In this document: positions 4,293 through 21,018 of the stretch, piece by piece
Position numbering within the stretch: the stretch's first letter is position 1
Layout: every line of letters begins with the position of its first letter
Source: a virus
Length of the DNA stretch: 24,471 bases
Strand: one strand, 5' to 3'
Virus record (IMG/VR): IMGVR_UViG_3300027996_000155
Coordinates: 1 to 24,471 of that record
Translations under genes and position numbers: made by a program
The notes under the pieces: model-generated
Database searches by the model: none
What the model saw: only the letters and a program-made list of their open reading frames with translations
What the model was told of the DNA's origin: nothing

Positions 4293-5198
4293 ATGGTAGT
4301 GAGTGAAATAAAATCAATTGCAAAGGGCTTGAAGTCGGTCTTGTCAGGTATGAAGGTTGGCTCTGGTTGGGGTATAATCTTAGAGATAGCCGATGGAATG
4401 AAGGGGCTGATGCAAATGGTTGGTGTTTTGTTAAAACTTATAACCAATCTAATGTCACCAATCGCAAATGTTATCATGGGATTGTTATATCCTATCTTAT
4501 TAATATTAAAACCACTTACAATTGGATTGCAACGGATAATGCAACCATTCTTTGAGCTTGGCTTAGAAGCCATGAGGCAGGGTGCTGAGCTGATGGTTGA
4601 TGGCGATCTTGCTGGTGCAACTGAAATGTTCGCTGCGGGTGCAGCTATCTTGTTGGGTGGGCTTGGAACTGTAATTGCAGCTTCAATGTATACAACTGTC
4701 ACAACATTCGCAAGTTTAATCTTAGAATTAATGTTGCTTATCGCAGGAACTATAATTCCTATTTCTGAAGAGAAAAAGGATGAGATCATGGAAGAGGCAC
4801 AATTAATGTGGGGAACCATGTTCGGAAGCTTCTTATCAATGGGAGTTGACCAGATTGCGGGACTTGCTAATCTGGTTGGACTTGATACAGCTGTCTTTGA
4901 AAAGGATGCTAAGGAAGGAATATTTAACTTTCTTTTGGGTGAAGATGGTGTTGAAAAGTTGTTGACAGATGAAACTCTTAATTATACAGAAATCCAAGAA
5001 GTGGCAATCAAAGACATGTTAGGTACAGGATCAGTTGGTCTAACATCTACAACACAAACATTAGCAGATGATCTAGGAAAGGCTGGTGTTAGTAAGGTTA
5101 ATCAAATTTTAGCAGAAGCGCGAGAGAAAGCAGCAGCGATTGTAGCAGCAGCTAATAGTCGTGCGGAAAGCATAACAAGCTTAGGAGGTTTATTATAA
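4293..5198 (+). CDS. Short tape-measure-like protein, copy 2 (paralog)
   Basis: A 301-residue paralog of the preceding protein. The match covers about the first 130 residues: KSVLSGM, then VIMGLLYPILLILKPL (about 66-81), IMQPFFELGLEAMRQG, and a hydrophobic ILLGGLGTVIAAS block. The C-terminal part diverges and ends in an alanine-rich amphipathic helix (AEAREKAAAIVAAANSRAES). It starts four bases after the previous stop without a clear ribosome binding site, suggesting coupling. Its stop overlaps the next ATG. Together with copy 1 it occupies the tape measure slot, so either two proteins share the role or one has become a membrane-insertion factor. Confidence 0.6.
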   Translation: MVVSEIKSIAKGLKSVLSGMKVGSGWGIILEIADGMKGLMQMVGVLLKLITNLMSPIANVIMGLLYPILLILKPLTIGLQRIMQPFFELGLEAMRQGAELMVDGDLAGATEMFAAGAAILLGGLGTVIAASMYTTVTTFASLILELMLLIAGTIIPISEEKKDEIMEEAQLMWGTMFGSFLSMGVDQIAGLANLVGLDTAVFEKDAKEGIFNFLLGEDGVEKLLTDETLNYTEIQEVAIKDMLGTGSVGLTSTTQTLADDLGKAGVSKVNQILAEAREKAAAIVAAANSRAESITSLGGLL

Positions 5199-5647
5199 TG
5201 GTAAGCGTAGCAATAACAAATGGAGACAGCGTAGTTTTTACATTCGCAGATGGTGAAGTGAAAACAGTTAGGAGTGAGATAACATCTCAGGTTGATAGTA
5301 TTCCGATGCCTGCGAGCGCACCCGCAAACACGATCTTGTTGGATCTGGGTGGCGTAATTAAAAAGATTACTGTGACAGGAACATTGTTCGTGACAGCAAC
5401 AACAAGGACAAGCGTTGGAACTGTGACTTCATTATTAGCACAGAAACAGTGGTTGGAAGACTTAATGGATGGCGGACAGACTTCAATGTTGTTTACATCT
5501 AATTTTGAATCATATTCACATGATGGAACTGGAAGTTGGGAATCAACATCTACAACTCAGGTTGTAGTACAAAAGCTAACATTCGCTGAGAATGAAGGAA
5601 ACCCTAACGAAATTCCGTTTGTAATGAATTTAATGGTAGGAACTTAA
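5198..5647 (+). CDS. Putative distal tail / tail-tip protein
   Basis: A 149-residue protein overlapping the tape-measure-like stop by one base (TAATG). It is beta-rich, with strands such as SVVFTFADGEVKTV, IKKITVTGTLFVTAT and VVVQKLTFAENEG. A short helical stretch (LLAQKQWLEDLMDGGQ, about residues 80-95) resembles the turn seen in distal tail and T4-gp19-like small tail proteins. It lies between tape measure and hub, where distal tail (Dit-type) adaptors are encoded, so a ring joining tube and hub is the likely role. Length is short for a full Dit protein. The assignment is positional. Confidence 0.5.
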   Translation: MVSVAITNGDSVVFTFADGEVKTVRSEITSQVDSIPMPASAPANTILLDLGGVIKKITVTGTLFVTATTRTSVGTVTSLLAQKQWLEDLMDGGQTSMLFTSNFESYSHDGTGSWESTSTTQVVVQKLTFAENEGNPNEIPFVMNLMVGT

Positions 5648-14465: not shown

Positions 14466-14615
14466 ATGTATAAAAAAGATAAACTAACAATTTCTATTGA
14501 TGAAAATTTAAAGAAAGACTATAAGGATTATTGTGAAAAAGAAGGCTATAAACTGAGTAGTAGAATCTCAGTGTTAATATTTAAGGATATGACTTATAAA
14601 GATGGTGAAAAATGA
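14466..14615 (+). CDS. Ribbon-helix-helix (RHH) type regulator
   Basis: A 49-residue protein with GGAGG about 7 bases upstream. KLTISIDENLKKDYKDYCEKEG then LSSRISVLIFKDM reads as one short beta strand followed by two helices, the Arc/MetJ/CopG plan in which paired strands of a dimer enter the DNA major groove. Its stop overlaps the primase-ATPase start by four bases, so they are co-expressed. A dyad around its promoter suggests autoregulation. Confidence 0.6.
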   Translation: MYKKDKLTISIDENLKKDYKDYCEKEGYKLSSRISVLIFKDMTYKDGEK

Positions 14616-16888
14616 ATGAACAGCAAAAATATATAGAAGTTCTTAGGAGAGTGACCACTCCTGAGATTAAGGTTGCGTTAGATTGTTACAAGCCTAAAAC
14701 TAAAAAGTATGAACCAGGATTTAGGCATAACATTGACATGTACAAATTACACGATGAGAGGACAGCGTGTATTAATGAGGTTATATTTGATTTTGATTAT
14801 TCTAGTTATGTTAAAAATTTTAAACAAGCGCAGAATGTTGTTGAGACATTGAAGATGCGTGGTATTGAACCCTATGTGTGCGCTACAGGCGGAAAGGGGA
14901 TTCACATTCATATATTTTTTGATAAGATTACTTGTAAGCGAGATGAAAATAAAGAACTTCTTAAAGATGCGTTCAGCTATGGGTTGACTTGGAAGCATAT
15001 AAGGTTGTGGCTTTGGAACTCTATCCTTGATGAGGCTGGCATTGAACCTGAACACAGGGGCATGGGCAAACAACTCGATTCATTTCCGATGAACTTTGAC
15101 TACTTCGCGGGTTCTACCCGATTGATCAGAGACATTGGTGGAAGGAAGCATGTTAAGAATAGTGATGGTGAGTGGACTAAATATTACAAAACCTATATTC
15201 CATTAGATGAGTTTACCAAGAAGAAGCCTGTTATAACTAATATTGACCAAGTTAGATTTCCAACCGAGATTAAACTGTTCAAGATTGGTGAGCATGAACT
15301 GTCAGGGTATCTAGAGAACTTCATTAAAGAGGCAAAGGGTAATGAGTTCAGAGAATTTAAGAATGAAAAGCTTCCTGTTAATTATAGAGATCTGGATGGG
15401 GTTGCTAGGATTAGGGAGGGGTTGGGTACAGGTCAAAGAAGCTTGGGTGCATTAACACTATCCATAGCTTGTAAAGTAGATGGTTTGAAGATCGAGGATG
15501 CAACTATTATATTGAAAGAGTATGTTAAGAGCTGTGGGCAGACCCAGCATAAGTTTAGTGAAGGTGAAGCATTACAGTGGTTAGATTGGGTTTACACTCA
15601 AAACAACGTGTTTTGGAGCTGTGCACAGCTCAAAACCCTAGGATTACACAACGAATACGACTGTGAATATTGTAAGTTTAGGCATAAAGACGCGCTGAAG
15701 TTCTTGACAGCCACCGACATACTCAAGAAGATAGAGGAAGTGCTTAACTTCGAGATCGTGGGTGAGATGGAATCCAAGGCATTAATATTCTTATTATTAC
15801 TAAGCAAAGACTTTCCATCTCATACGGGCAAGCCCGATTGGAACATTATCAGTGATCCACAGAGTCAGAATGTTATCCTGAGTGCTGACAGTTCAAGTGG
15901 TAAAACCTATTTGGTGAAAGCTATATTGAAGATGTTTGGCGAGAAAGATGTTGACTACTTTGTTATAAGTAGGATTACCAAGAATGCCATCAACTACTTT
16001 ACAGATGTTAATATGGATGGCAAAATTATATTTATCGAAGAAATGCAAGGACTCGATGATGCAACCTCTCAGTTGAGGTTGTGGATGTCTGAGGGTTGTC
16101 TTACCTTGAACACAGTGGAGAAAGTTAAGAATGATGAAGGTGTTGAAGTGAATACCATGGTCACCAAGACCACCACTGGACAACCTAGTTTTATAACATG
16201 TCAAGCTGAGGGGCTGGTGAATGATCAACTTAATAATAGAAGTTGGGTTTTGAGCACCGATGTGAGTGATGAGCAAACTCAAATGATATTAAATTTTCAG
16301 AATGATATGAACCAAGGCTCGATTAAGATTAACAAAAAGAAAATTAGAATGATATCCGATGCGATGAAGCAATTAAGACCATACCATTTCAAGATACCAT
16401 TTGCAGATCACGCTGCAATGGGAATACCAACTGGTGACATTAGGGTGAGAAGAGATTATCAGAAGTTTTTAACCCTTATCAAATGCAGCGCATACTTACA
16501 CCAGAAACAAAGGCAGATCATTAAAGAGAATGACCAAGAGTTTATAATATGCACCATCCAAGATTATGATATTGCTAGGTTGTACAGCAGTGGTATATTA
16601 GGTGCAACATTCAGTGGTTTGACAATGATACAGCTTAACCTTCTAACCTTCTTAAAGAAGTCCAGTTTTAACATGGAATTTGAAATAAGAGATCTTCAGC
16701 GTAACTTGAACAAGAGCCAACCTTATTGGTATGGTCAGTTAAAACAGCTTGTAGATCTTGGTTACATTTCTTGTGAAAAGAGTATAGGAAAGTCAACAGT
16801 TTACAGTTTAGTTAAGGAAAAAACAGTGAATTTGATCAAACTTCCAACAGGTGAAGAGCTTGCCAAAAAGCTCTTGACTTCTTCTTGA
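14612..16888 (+). CDS. Archaeo-eukaryotic primase fused to an AAA+-type replicative ATPase/helicase
   Basis: A 758-residue replication protein. The N-terminal part is an archaeo-eukaryotic primase: catalytic DFD at 60-62 (VIFDFD) and the nucleotide-binding GGKGIHIHIF at 93-102; an RLIRDIGGRKH block (about 170-180) may give the remaining active-site residues. A cysteine cluster follows (C337, C351, C354), probably a zinc-binding linker. An ATPase core has Walker A SSSGKT (427-432) and Walker B KIIFIEE (471-477), with a RSW...D segment (about 543-550) that could supply the arginine finger. The C-terminus (about 670-740) looks like a winged helix. It should prime and unwind viral DNA. The repeat element right after its stop is a plausible origin for it. 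Confidence 0.85.
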   Translation: MNEQQKYIEVLRRVTTPEIKVALDCYKPKTKKYEPGFRHNIDMYKLHDERTACINEVIFDFDYSSYVKNFKQAQNVVETLKMRGIEPYVCATGGKGIHIHIFFDKITCKRDENKELLKDAFSYGLTWKHIRLWLWNSILDEAGIEPEHRGMGKQLDSFPMNFDYFAGSTRLIRDIGGRKHVKNSDGEWTKYYKTYIPLDEFTKKKPVITNIDQVRFPTEIKLFKIGEHELSGYLENFIKEAKGNEFREFKNEKLPVNYRDLDGVARIREGLGTGQRSLGALTLSIACKVDGLKIEDATIILKEYVKSCGQTQHKFSEGEALQWLDWVYTQNNVFWSCAQLKTLGLHNEYDCEYCKFRHKDALKFLTATDILKKIEEVLNFEIVGEMESKALIFLLLLSKDFPSHTGKPDWNIISDPQSQNVILSADSSSGKTYLVKAILKMFGEKDVDYFVISRITKNAINYFTDVNMDGKIIFIEEMQGLDDATSQLRLWMSEGCLTLNTVEKVKNDEGVEVNTMVTKTTTGQPSFITCQAEGLVNDQLNNRSWVLSTDVSDEQTQMILNFQNDMNQGSIKINKKKIRMISDAMKQLRPYHFKIPFADHAAMGIPTGDIRVRRDYQKFLTLIKCSAYLHQKQRQIIKENDQEFIICTIQDYDIARLYSSGILGATFSGLTMIQLNLLTFLKKSSFNMEFEIRDLQRNLNKSQPYWYGQLKQLVDLGYISCEKSIGKSTVYSLVKEKTVNLIKLPTGEELAKKLLTSS

Positions 16889-16901
16889 ATATATATATTA
16901 C

Positions 16902-17200
16902 AAGTGCCGACCTATAACGAGCTTGAAAAAAACCGACCTATTACTCTTTGGTAATAATACTTTTACAAAAGCGATATTACCAAGAGGTAGTACAGAGGTT
17001 TTTCAAAACCTCGTTATAGGTCGACCTTCATGCTACCCGAATTCAATAGGAAGGGCGGTTGAGTACCTATTACAACACCTTATGAGAGTGGTCACGCAAA
17101 AATGATCGATATATATTTATACTATATATACTACTTATATTTATGGATCGATTATTCTCAAGTCGCTCATCTCATAGCGTGTTGTAATAGGTCGGCACTT
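16902..17200. repeat. Repeat-rich AT-rich element, candidate replication origin (alternative: MITE-like element)
   Basis: Five copies of a core CGACCTATWAC-like motif lie here in mixed orientation: + at 16902-16921, + at 16933-16944, - at 17010-17023, + at 17065-17079, and - at 17179-17200. The outer pair forms terminal inverted repeats (AAGTGCCGACCTAT/ATAGGTCGGCACTT). Copies 1 and 3 share a 14-base inverted match through CGAG; copies 4 and 5 share another through ACAACAC. Internally there is a perfect 8-bp hairpin GAGGTTTT/AAAACCTC at 16995-17012 and an AT-rich block (17111-17145) bounded by ATCGAT at 17105-17110 and 17147-17152. Iterons beside an unwinding-like AT block next to the replication protein suggest an origin. 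Confidence 0.55.
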
Positions 17201-17231: not shown

Positions 17232-17250
17232 GGGTATAAATATATATAAG
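17232..17250 (+). promoter_or_regulatory. Archaeal-type promoter (purine-rich BRE plus TATA box)
   Basis: AAGGG precedes TATAAATATATATAAG. The distance to ATG 17287 (about 40-50 bases) fits a short leader with the GGAGG ribosome binding site at 17275-17279. It would drive the RHH-like gene and the RNA ligase behind it. Confidence 0.55.
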
Positions 17251-17286: not shown

Positions 17287-17415
17287 ATGGTGAAAAGAAT
17301 TTTTGTAATTGTGGATGATCCCGAGCACGAAAGATATGTTAAAGCCAAGGGGTTTAGAACTTGGAAAGATGTGATTGAAAGGGGTGTGGAAAGCATTGAA
17401 AATGATGATCAATGA
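17287..17415 (+). CDS. Small RHH-like regulator candidate
   Basis: A 42-residue protein with GGAGG at the correct spacing. KRIFVIVDDPEHERYVKAKGFRTWKDVIERGVES gives a beta strand followed by two helices, consistent with a minimal RHH or similar dimeric DNA-binding fold, though without a canonical signature. It overlaps the RNA ligase start and lies next to the candidate origin, so it may regulate replication or this operon. Confidence 0.45.
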   Translation: MVKRIFVIVDDPEHERYVKAKGFRTWKDVIERGVESIENDDQ

Positions 17416-18007
17416 TATGCCAAAACTACACTCTCCCTTTGTTAGAAAGATGATTGACAAGAGGTATGTTGTTACACCAGAAATAGATGAAGATTTTAAA
17501 TGGGTGTTTGAAGATGATGAGGTGATAGCAACTGAAAAGCTGGATGGGACTAATGTCAGTATAATTATTGAGAATGGTAAGGTGACAAGAGTTTTTAACC
17601 GAAAGAATGAAATCCAAATATTTGGTTCCAAACAACGATTTATAATTGAAGGTGTTATGAATGCGTTTGATCGTGGGTATTGTAATTTTACTGATGGGCA
17701 ATATTTCGGTGAAGTGATAGGTCCGAAGTTGCAGAAAAACCCGTTGGGGTCAAAGGAACATTTATGGATTCCATTTGAAAAGGTCAGAAAGAGTTATTCA
17801 TATAAATCATGGGGCAAATATCCTAAAGATTTTGATAATATATCAACATGGTTCAAAGATGATTTGTTTAGTTTGTTTGTAAGACAAAGATCGGGCAAAG
17901 TGATCAAACCTGAAGGTATTGTCTTTTACCAACCATCAACTGGAAAGATGGCGAAACTTAGAGTTGATATGTTTGATTGGTTTGAAGGAAAGAGGCATCG
18001 AAAATGA
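17402..18007 (+). CDS. RNA ligase family nucleotidyltransferase
   Basis: A 201-residue protein from ATG 17402 (ATGs at 17405 and 17417 are possible). It shows the covalent nucleotidyltransferase motifs in order: motif I EKLDGTN with catalytic Lys46 (45-51), an NRK segment (66-68), motif III-like FGEVIG (102-107), motif IV EGIVF (171-175) and motif V KMAKLR (182-187). This is the RNA-ligase type core, which seals nicked or broken RNA using ATP. The length is close to a catalytic core only; no C-terminal domain is present, so a partner may be needed. It is followed by a zinc ribbon and a tRNA-like gene, which suggests tRNA repair or splicing. A role in DNA sealing cannot be excluded. Confidence 0.75.
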   Translation: MMINDMPKLHSPFVRKMIDKRYVVTPEIDEDFKWVFEDDEVIATEKLDGTNVSIIIENGKVTRVFNRKNEIQIFGSKQRFIIEGVMNAFDRGYCNFTDGQYFGEVIGPKLQKNPLGSKEHLWIPFEKVRKSYSYKSWGKYPKDFDNISTWFKDDLFSLFVRQRSGKVIKPEGIVFYQPSTGKMAKLRVDMFDWFEGKRHRK

Positions 18008-18120
18008 TGATTTATAGATGCCTTGGGTGTGATGGTGATTGCTACCAAACCAAGGAAGATGAAGATGTTTACATTTGTATCGAGTGTGGAGCTACATTTG
18101 ATATTGATGATTACTTATAG
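18004..18120 (+). CDS. Small zinc-ribbon protein next to RNA ligase
   Basis: A 38-residue protein whose ATG overlaps the ligase stop. CLGC near the N-terminus and CIEC about 16 residues later make a single zinc ribbon, followed by an acidic tail (FDIDDYL). Coupling to the ligase suggests an accessory nucleic-acid-binding subunit, but it has no other features. Its stop codon coincides with the first bases of the tRNA-like gene. Confidence 0.55.
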   Translation: MMIYRCLGCDGDCYQTKEDEDVYICIECGATFDIDDYL

Positions 18121-18219
18121 TGGGGTAGCTCAGTCTGGTCGAGCGCAGGACAGCACCATCATAAAATATCTTGATGGTCCGTAAAGCCTGAGACACTGGT
18201 TCAAATCCAGTCCCCATAT
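18119..18219 (+). tRNA. tRNA-like gene with an oversized anticodon arm
   Basis: A canonical D-arm (TAGCTCAG...GAGC, stem 18128-18131/18141-18144) and T-arm (ACTGG-TTCAAAT-CCAGT, 18195-18211) are present, with an acceptor stem of about six pairs (GTGGGG with CCCCAT); the first pair is A-A. The anticodon stem CAGG/CCTG (18146-18149/18187-18190) is separated by about 37 bases, some 28 more than normal. The extra part folds into a hairpin (ACCATCA 18155-18161 / TGATGGT 18172-18178). An intron is likely, but no canonical bulge-helix-bulge or U33 context could be set, so the anticodon is not assigned. CCA is not encoded. The shared leader of the next gene begins at its 3' end. Confidence 0.6.
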
Positions 18220-18249
18220 CATAGTCACGGCGAAAGCCAAGACAGGAGA
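18219..18249 (+). promoter_or_regulatory. Shared leader element, copy 1 (GNRA-type hairpin before the ribosome binding site)
   Basis: TCATAGTCACGGCGAAAGC is followed at once by CAAGACAGGAGA. GGC-GAAA-GCC forms a GNRA tetraloop hairpin, extended by GTC/GAC across a small internal loop, and the AGGAG ribosome binding site follows. The same two blocks occur before the gene at 18657. Here it directly abuts the tRNA-like 3' end. Confidence 0.6.
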
Positions 18250-18256
18250 AAAAAAG

Positions 18257-18606: not shown

Positions 18607-18649
18607 TCATAGTCACGGCGAAAGCAGAAAGCTAAGTCAAGACAGGAGA
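18607..18649 (+). promoter_or_regulatory. Shared leader element, copy 2
   Basis: The same 19-base block TCATAGTCACGGCGAAAGC (18607-18625) and the same 12-base block CAAGACAGGAGA (18638-18649) as copy 1, separated here by a 12-base insert AGAAAGCTAAGT. The ribosome binding site within it precedes the ATG at 18657. Conservation of both blocks despite the insert points to a functional leader. Confidence 0.6.
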
Positions 18650-18656
18650 CAAGAAA

Positions 18657-19028: not shown

Positions 19029-19664
19029 ATGATAGGTGAAAAAAGTCAATTAGAATATTTATTTAAAAGACAAAAGAATTATGATAGAAAATATGGTATG
19101 TTTGTTAATATCATAGAAAGTGTGGTTGGTCAAGAGATTGATGTGCTTGAATTGTTTGGTGGTGTTGGCATACAAACTTATTTGCTGGATTTGTTTACCA
19201 AGCCAAAGTTTCATACAGTGGTTGAAAGGGACGAACACTGTTTAAGAATATTGGGTTATTTTAACAAAAACAAAGATGTGATTGAAGGTGATGCATTTGA
19301 ATATGATCATGACTTTGAATATGACTTGGCAATATTAGACTCTGGAATGAATAAGAGTAACACTGACAAGCACATTAAACTATTGAAGAATGTGAAAGCC
19401 AAGAAGATCATCATTACAGAGACAGGCGTGTACAATGTTAAGTTTCATAAAGATCTTACTTATGAACAGTATTATAAGAATGTTGCAAAGAGGTTGCAAA
19501 GTGCGGGGTTCAAGGTTGAGCGTATAGTCTATGAATGTAACTTTGGGATGATACTGATCAACCAAGAGCATCAAGGTGGGCTGATCATTGAAAAGAATAC
19601 ATACACCAACCTATGTTGGCGTGATTATGTAGAGCTTATCAAGGACGAGGCATACGATGAGTGA
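19029..19664 (+). CDS. SAM-dependent methyltransferase, substrate unknown
   Basis: A 211-residue Rossmann-fold methyltransferase. ATG 19029 is preferred because GGAGG (19019-19023) sits about 5 bases upstream; a further ATG at 19017 would place the start over that site. Motif I is VLELFGGVGIQT (39-50), motif II ends in an acidic VVERDEH, and a GDAFEYD...YDLAILDSG stretch fits motifs III/IV. There is no DPPY or PCQ motif, so it is not a standard DNA adenine or cytosine-C5 enzyme, and its target is unclear (nucleic acid, protein or small molecule). It overlaps the radical SAM gene by 8 bases, which suggests a joint reaction. Confidence 0.7.
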   Translation: MIGEKSQLEYLFKRQKNYDRKYGMFVNIIESVVGQEIDVLELFGGVGIQTYLLDLFTKPKFHTVVERDEHCLRILGYFNKNKDVIEGDAFEYDHDFEYDLAILDSGMNKSNTDKHIKLLKNVKAKKIIITETGVYNVKFHKDLTYEQYYKNVAKRLQSAGFKVERIVYECNFGMILINQEHQGGLIIEKNTYTNLCWRDYVELIKDEAYDE

Positions 19665-21018
19665 TGTTTACTCAATGCCATTGAGTGTCACTTCGCAATT
19701 TTATTTTTGTCCAATGCCATTGAGGTTAGACACTTACAGCGGATGCACTAATAACTGCTTGTATTGCTTTGCAAACAACAGCATGCAGAAGTACATGAAC
19801 ACTGATGGTGATGTTAAGCTGGCAACCTTACACGATGATGAGTTTGTTAAGGCGTCAACATTACAACACGTCAAGAAGTATTTTGACATTGCATTCGAAG
19901 GTGCACCCAACAATTTTAAAGAACAAGAGGGGTGTGCGATTGAAGCACTTAGGAGAAGGATACCCATACACTTCGGTGGAATGAGTGATCCCTTCCAACC
20001 CAAAGAGAAGAAGTCAAGGGTGACATTAGAGGTTCTCAAGCTTCTTAAAAGTTACAACTATCCAGTTGTACTCTCAACCAAATGTAAGCTTATCATGGAA
20101 CCCGAGTACAGAGAGATCATTGACGATTATGAAAACTTTGGCTTGCAGGTCAGTCTGATTGATACTAGGCAAGAGGTCATGGATCTTATTGAGCCAGGAG
20201 TTGGTAAGAATAGTGTACAGGATCGGCTTGATATCTTAGAAACTTACAAACACAAATGGACAGCAATCAGGATACAGCCTGTCATCATTAACCTTAATGA
20301 GCCAATCATTCCCGACCTACTACAGAAGTGTAAAGATCGAGATGTCAACCACGCGGTGGTTGAAGGGTTGAAGTTCATGAACTCTAACAAGACAGCTAAT
20401 ATTGTTATAAGTAAAGCATTCAAGAAGATTACAGGCGAAAGCTTTGACTTGGCTGCGCACTACAAAGCGATTGGTGGAAAGGTGAGTGGTAATGATATTG
20501 AACTGCCGACATGGCGTAAGAATGTGTATGTTAAGAAGTTTAAGAAGGTGTGTAAAGATCTGGGCATCACTTACGGGGCTGCTGATAATGATCTAAGGCT
20601 CGAGGGTGAAACTCCGTGTTGTTGTGGCAATGAACAAATGCCAGGATATGATAATGTTTGCAAACATAACATTGGATATGCGGTGTTCAGAGCCAAAGCG
20701 AAAGGGGTGCCAATCACTTATGACCTGATTAAAGATGAATGGTTCTGGAAGGGTGACTTTAGAATGATAATTTCACAGGACAAACTTTCAAGGAAGCTTG
20801 GGCGTAGAGCCACGAGGGACGATTCAAACATTCCGTTGATGGAATGCTTCATGAAACAGTGGAACAACAATGGAAAGAATAGTCCTTGCCAGCATTGTTC
20901 AGTGAAAAAAAGGCAAAAGCTTGATGAAGATGGTAACAAGACCTATATATTTAAAGATGATGGAGAGATGAAAGAGTTATTGAAACCAATCAACCAAAAG
21001 ACATTGTTCAGTTTTTAG
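19657..21018 (+). CDS. Radical SAM protein, SPL/DNA-photolyase-like (COG1533 type)
   Basis: A 453-residue protein. The radical SAM cluster motif is CTNNCLYC (C30, C34, C37), binding a [4Fe-4S] centre. The flanking sequence DTYSGC...FANN and a downstream FGGMSDPFQPKEKKSRVTLEVLKLL...VVLSTK (about 106-142) are hallmarks of the spore-photoproduct-lyase-related group. Two extra Cys groups occur in the C-terminal part: CCC at 321-323 with C335, and CQHC at 411-414, perhaps a second metal or Fe-S site. Family members repair or modify nucleic acids; the reaction here is unknown. The gene overlaps the methyltransferase and precedes PolB. Confidence 0.8.
   Translation: MSDVYSMPLSVTSQFYFCPMPLRLDTYSGCTNNCLYCFANNSMQKYMNTDGDVKLATLHDDEFVKASTLQHVKKYFDIAFEGAPNNFKEQEGCAIEALRRRIPIHFGGMSDPFQPKEKKSRVTLEVLKLLKSYNYPVVLSTKCKLIMEPEYREIIDDYENFGLQVSLIDTRQEVMDLIEPGVGKNSVQDRLDILETYKHKWTAIRIQPVIINLNEPIIPDLLQKCKDRDVNHAVVEGLKFMNSNKTANIVISKAFKKITGESFDLAAHYKAIGGKVSGNDIELPTWRKNVYVKKFKKVCKDLGITYGAADNDLRLEGETPCCCGNEQMPGYDNVCKHNIGYAVFRAKAKGVPITYDLIKDEWFWKGDFRMIISQDKLSRKLGRRATRDDSNIPLMECFMKQWNNNGKNSPCQHCSVKKRQKLDEDGNKTYIFKDDGEMKELLKPINQKTLFSF

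Follow-up and report, generated by a model that had tools for sequence, protein, structure and literature searches.

Does the repeat-rich DNA that lies directly behind the primase-ATPase gene of this virus serve as its origin of replication, and which protein would read it? A preliminary description of the 24,471-nucleotide stretch analysed here (the window) had proposed an origin, composed of iterons and an unwinding block, and had named a MITE-like element as the alternative. Few viruses of uncultured archaea have, to our knowledge, a known origin. Comparison alone provides, in the case presented below, a putative recognition word, a two-pair geometry and one candidate specificity residue.

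Genomic context

The record is a 24.5-kb linear viral DNA whose gene set includes a phage tail-tube protein, a family B DNA polymerase, an RNA ligase and the primase-ATPase. An archaeal host is suggested by an intron-bearing tRNA gene and by promoters of TATA-like sequence. The tRNA gene is interrupted in its anticodon region by an intron or insert and is detected by ARAGORN only when introns are allowed, with the reading Ser-TGA and a tentative anticodon. No match to the Orc1/Cdc6 family was found among the ten large ORFs scanned. All large genes lie on one strand and GC skew is positive throughout the window with no switch, so that the skew analysis suggested in the preliminary description, once run, was uninformative.

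Several features of the surroundings are recorded here in their own right. A comparison with L006, one of the relatives introduced below, places the tRNA gene precisely at the stop codon of the zinc-ribbon-like ORF that precedes it. The RNA ligase gene (17375-18007) sits between this ORF and the gene of a small protein resembling ribbon-helix-helix (RHH) proteins, and since these two genes directly adjoin each other in L006, the ligase was either gained or lost. A leader of the form ATAGTCACGGCGAAAGC...AAGACAGGAG occurs twice in the window (18220-18256 and 18608-18656), ahead of two different ORFs, and TATAGTCA...AAGACGGAG forms precede a homologous gene in several relatives, perhaps representing a conserved 5' leader. 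In L005, genes for a QueD-like protein and a QueE-like radical SAM enzyme were recognised by eye at ~4776-5500, and the window contains a radical-SAM-like gene (19657-21018, weak Pfam match); a 7-deazaguanine-type base modification is possible in these viruses.

The repeat element and the gene in front of it

The repeat cluster in the window is confirmed (Table 1). Four of the five copies of CGACCTATWAC previously reported are exact, whilst the fifth lacks the CG, i.e. TACCTATTAC; no further exact core with its CGA is present in the window. The 14-base outer inverted ends match perfectly, and the nested inverted pairs are present at 16908-17023 (57-nt arms, 74%) and 17065-17192 (57-nt arms, 72%), both being imperfect. 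The element folds far better than its shuffles, as the preliminary description had suggested checking, both as single-stranded DNA (z = -7.6) and as RNA (z = -11.2), with no shuffle equally good in either case. In a de novo 9-mer scan it is the top 420-bp stretch of the window, with a score of 5.7 versus 4.4 for the best stretch elsewhere. In agreement with the earlier view that it contains no convincing gene, a 60-aa TTG frame is the only listed ORF that it fully encloses. A megablast search of the element against phages gave no match.

The AT-rich block bounded by ATCGAT (copies at 17105-17110 and 17147-17152), to which unwinding had been ascribed, is present but specific to the window, the AT content of the corresponding F2-R2 interval being 55-72% in the five other genomes measured.

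Table 1. Positions of the repeat element, its sites and the neighbouring genes in the window
Feature	Position	Strand	Remarks
Primase-ATPase gene	14612-16888	+	putative initiator with AEP-like primase domain, AAA/SF3-like ATPase and C-terminal winged helix
wH1 coding part, residues 672-733	16625-16810	+	AF2 model
Residue 707 codon	16730-16732	+	
Left outer inverted end, AAGTGCCGACCTAT	16902-16915	+	
Site F1, CGACCTATAAC	16908-16918	+	
Extra site F1', CGACCTATTAC	16934-16944	+	within first hairpin
Site R1, CGACCTATAAC on - strand	17013-17023	-	first inverted pair, with F1
Central CGAATTC	17038-17044		20 bases past start of R1 AGGT, 20 before F2 ACCT
Site F2, ACCTATTAC	17065-17073	+	without leading CG
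AT-rich hairpin bounded by ATCGAT	17105-17152		between F2 and R2
Site R2, CGACCTATTAC on - strand	17184-17194	-	second inverted pair, with F2
Right outer inverted end, ATAGGTCGGCACTT	17187-17200	-	
RHH-like protein gene	17287-17415	+	42 aa; own TATA-like promoter 17235-17249
tRNA gene	18119-18219		intron or insert in anticodon region; Rfam 38.9 bits

The primase-ATPase has the architecture expected of an initiator, namely a predicted ATPase/helicase core followed by a C-terminal DNA-binding domain, the predicted winged helix wH1. Pfam matches to LigD_Prim-Pol and AEP-TOTE at the N-terminus and to HTH_34 (673-726) are weak and all below the gathering score, and Foldseek returned matches to Prim-Pol structures, none of them below E 1e-3. 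The ATPase region is poorly modelled by AF2 (pLDDT below 50), and the Walker-type DSSSGKT and IIFIEE motifs are present in the alignment. wH1 is modelled with helices at 672-683, 692-699 and 703-716 and strands at 719-722 and 730-733 (pLDDT ~70-82; 85-90 for its homologue in the L005 model), which makes the third helix, 703-716, the predicted recognition helix, with residue 707 near its start. Foldseek matches of the wH1 fragment are winged-helix repressors, and the pNOB8 centromere-binding protein is listed among the winged-helix matches.

Conservation of place, order and word

Scans of viral contigs recovered six independent relatives (L004, L005, L006, L009, L011 and L012), whose primase-ATPases are 54-60% identical to that of the window, together with the near-duplicate L010 and the distant L013. 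In all six, a motif cluster of the same kind immediately follows the wH1 codons, so that it is found there in seven of seven genomes with the window included and is missing from none of the close relatives, in support of the origin reading of the preliminary description. The motif is ACCT(A/T/G)WWA and the sites, three to six per genome, follow the order F1-R1-F2-R2, which is elaborated to FFRFR in the window and FRFFRR in L006; L004 is without a clear R2 and F1 is degenerate in L012. In total, the seven regions contain 30 sites where 1.34 would be expected (Poisson p ~6e-30), and several short common repeats thus directly adjoin the putative initiator gene, as in iteron origins.

The start-to-start spacings are 78-119 for F1-R1, 42-51 for R1-F2 (88 in L011) and 83-120 for F2-R2. 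R1-F2 measures 51 bp in the window, L006 and L012, which carry the central CGAATTC at the same offset, coding in L012 only and noncoding in the other two. In a blind k-mer scan of the relatives the clusters rank 2-16, and the rank-2 stretch of L005 consists of a different word; because these clusters would not by themselves be exceptional, the case rests on conserved place, order and word. No such cluster was found in L013 (30% identity), and a search of genome contigs yielded only two matches, both weak and partial, from archaeal MAGs. Behind the distantly related ATPases of a Sulfolobus virus and bacterial plasmids (L038-L040) no comparable cluster was found.

Copies scattered in unrelated genomes, which would favour a transposable element, were not seen in two scans of 2.9 million viral contigs with exact long DNA patterns, one of which was empty while the other found only L006. 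A three-site pattern with the T-variant of the word gave eight matches among all viral contigs, of which five are contigs of the family, each match beside the primase, and three are other phages. The same scan with the A-variant gave eight matches, all in other phages and several of them plainly coding coincidences, and no further primase relatives. L025, L027, L028, L033 and L037 were rejected as further members, having no primase relative, and such site triplets in unrelated phages arise by chance or for other reasons. ACCTATAA/ACCTTAAA clusters in both orientations occur in unrelated phages at L037 893-1133, L033 3302-3478, L027 12309-12514 and L028 7200-7405, the neighbouring genes being ATPase or VapE-like in L033 and L037 and DUF5906/D5-like in L027. 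Some of these look-alikes may be origins too; other matches in phages are coincidences within genes.

Constraint on DNA within a reading frame

In five relatives (L004, L005, L009, L011 and L012) the cluster is part of the primase reading frame, which continues beyond it to encode a second winged-helix domain. The primases of the window and L006 terminate sooner and are without this domain, and their clusters are noncoding, except that F1 of L006 is still within the gene. The origin would therefore be kept within the reading frame of its initiator in most members of the family and outside it in two. The L005 linker that the cluster encodes, between two confidently modelled winged-helix domains, is predicted to be disordered (pLDDT ~40-55). 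Across the five in-frame relatives the words occupy codon phases 0, 1 and 2, and since the word is read in all three phases, the constraint acts on DNA and not on protein. The second winged-helix domain weakly resembles the archaeal RPA32 winged helix (E 0.06) and possibly serves as a replisome contact.

Folding is also enriched between the sites: the mean z of the inner F-R intervals is -2.0, and random segments drawn from the same contigs average -0.34 (p 3e-4). The F2-R2 intervals of L009 and L011 and the F1-R1 interval of L006 show no excess folding, and their words are kept.

Word variants and residue 707

Each genome uses one variant of the word throughout: CTAT in the window and L011, CTTA in L005, L006, L009 and L012, and CTGA in L004. 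The resulting partition by the base after CCT (A/T/G) is matched by exactly one of 750 ungapped columns of the primase alignment, residue 707 (Y/H/R). When labels were permuted, a match within the recognition helix arose in two of 105 arrangements (p ~0.02, n = 7 genomes), and the correspondence is suggestive of a protein-DNA code in which residue 707 takes part.

The tree joins the window to L006 (support 94/97) and leaves the rest unresolved, a topology that fits about three joint changes of residue and base. Because the sister of the window is L006 and not L011, the A-variant common to the window and L011 does not reflect simple close kinship; these two genomes have 23 private primase columns in common, however, so that shared ancestry may contribute to the match at residue 707. 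A fuller scenario, which we find plausible but slightly less likely than not, is that initiator and origin co-evolve, with residue 707 (Tyr/His/Arg) specifying the base after CCT (A/T/G) through those three or so joint changes, while the four-site origin entered or left the coding sequence with its geometry kept.

Other readers of the word were ranked lower: the second winged-helix domain, since the window and L006 are without it and yet keep the words, and the RHH-like protein, since five genomes have no such gene beside the cluster.

An origin weighed against other roles

The cluster is most probably the replication origin of the virus, a reading well supported by comparison. Computed directly are the repeats themselves, their conserved order and place, the uniformity of the word within each genome, the DNA-level constraint in coding sequence and the excess of hairpins, and the alternatives can be judged against these.

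The strongest competitor, which we nevertheless regard as unlikely, holds that the cluster is a cis site for another protein, either a centromere-like partition site or an operator of the RHH-like protein or a host factor, with replication not its main role. Such a role would suit the small RHH-like gene that follows the cluster in the window with its own promoter, and centromere-binding proteins can have a winged-helix fold, as the pNOB8 match illustrates. L006 is the one relative with a comparable small gene after the cluster, whereas five of the seven genomes hold words of the same kind inside the primase gene with no such gene directly after; the word variant, moreover, tracks a residue of the primase winged helix. 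The RHH label itself was given by eye, and no Pfam family matches the protein, which is possibly an accessory factor or regulator.

It is considerably less probable that the hairpins act in the transcript, as a structured RNA or terminator at the end of the primase message. The strong RNA fold and the two long imperfect hairpins of the window would be expected of such an element, but no Rfam family matches it, the region is translated in five relatives, where only short words and modest hairpins persist, and the words are kept in every genome while the hairpins are not, as the three intervals without excess folding demonstrate. The MITE or other transposable insertion offered earlier as an alternative has its perfect 14-bp terminal inverted repeats in its favour and is rejected as the least probable reading, given that the cluster occupies the same place in all seven genomes and is in frame in five, that the element is single-copy in the record, with its longer sequence in no other viral contig except L006, and that, as already remarked in the preliminary description, no target duplication is seen.

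With the cluster read as an origin, a working model can be proposed, in which binding by wH1 is suggested by the one matching residue-base partition and the subsequent steps are borrowed from published systems. The primase-ATPase would use the recognition helix of wH1 to bind the ACCT(A/T/G)WWA words. The pairs F1/R1 and F2/R2, each spanning ~78-120 bp, lie back to back on either side of a 42-51-bp centre (88 bp in L011) and would position two ATPase assemblies in opposite orientation, facing each other. These assemblies may melt the DNA between the sites, aided by local hairpin-forming sequence, after which the primase domain would make primers and the family B polymerase of the virus would extend them in both directions.

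Comparison with known systems

The origin of phage lambda lies inside the O gene. Its placement resembles that in L004, L005, L009, L011 and L012, where the repeats proposed to bind the initiator are likewise part of the initiator's own coding sequence; it differs in having four near-direct iterons and in that O is neither a primase nor an ATPase. In phage P4, the alpha protein is a primase-helicase fused to a winged-helix domain that binds origin repeats (PMC4234260), an arrangement comparable to the reader proposed for the window, although the P4 primase is of the TOPRIM type.

For SaPI Rep and SCCmec Cch2, the passages on these proteins in PMC7581432 (citing Ubeda et al. 2007) place iterons directly downstream of the initiator helicase gene, where they are read by the C-terminal domain, and binding by two hexamers is proposed. 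The likeness to the window lies in iterons that directly adjoin the gene of a self-loading initiator helicase with a C-terminal reader, which for the window is a proposal. The differences are that these are bacterial helicases of the DUF927 or D5 type with the iterons downstream of the gene, and the F-R-F-R geometry with an origin inside the initiator frame is not described for them in those passages.

The Sulfolobus plasmid pRN1 encodes ORF904, an AEP primase-SF3 helicase-winged helix protein that needs a 100-bp stem-loop directly 3' of its gene; its origin is without iterons, and the recognised motif was described by the authors as 'not yet identified' (PMC4234260). Three likenesses stand out: a protein combining primase, ATPase and C-terminal winged helix, as predicted for the window, with the known or probable origin directly behind its gene, inverted arms (21-nt in pRN1, 58 nt apart) at a span like that of the F-R pairs, and a gene for a small DNA-binding regulator, putative in the window, beside the replication gene. 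Correspondingly, the window has two inverted pairs of the ~100-bp stem-loop kind 3' of its replication gene. In contrast, pRN1 has one inverted pair and no iterons, and only the known 21-nt arms, 58 nt apart, were found behind its gene (L041), whereas the window family has two pairs built around a common short word. Membership of the pRN1 family is not supported by protein relation, hhalign giving a probability of 6.8% over 41 columns around Walker A only.

In published precedents (pRN1, SaPI Rep and Cch2, the latter two as presented in the passages cited) the origin immediately follows the gene of the initiator helicase, which supports reading the cluster as an origin. The window family appears to join the iteron-origin traits of SaPI and P4 with the 3' stem-loop trait of pRN1, and, if this is true, ACCT(A/T/G)WWA would be the kind of recognition word that pRN1-like primase/winged-helix initiators have so far lacked.
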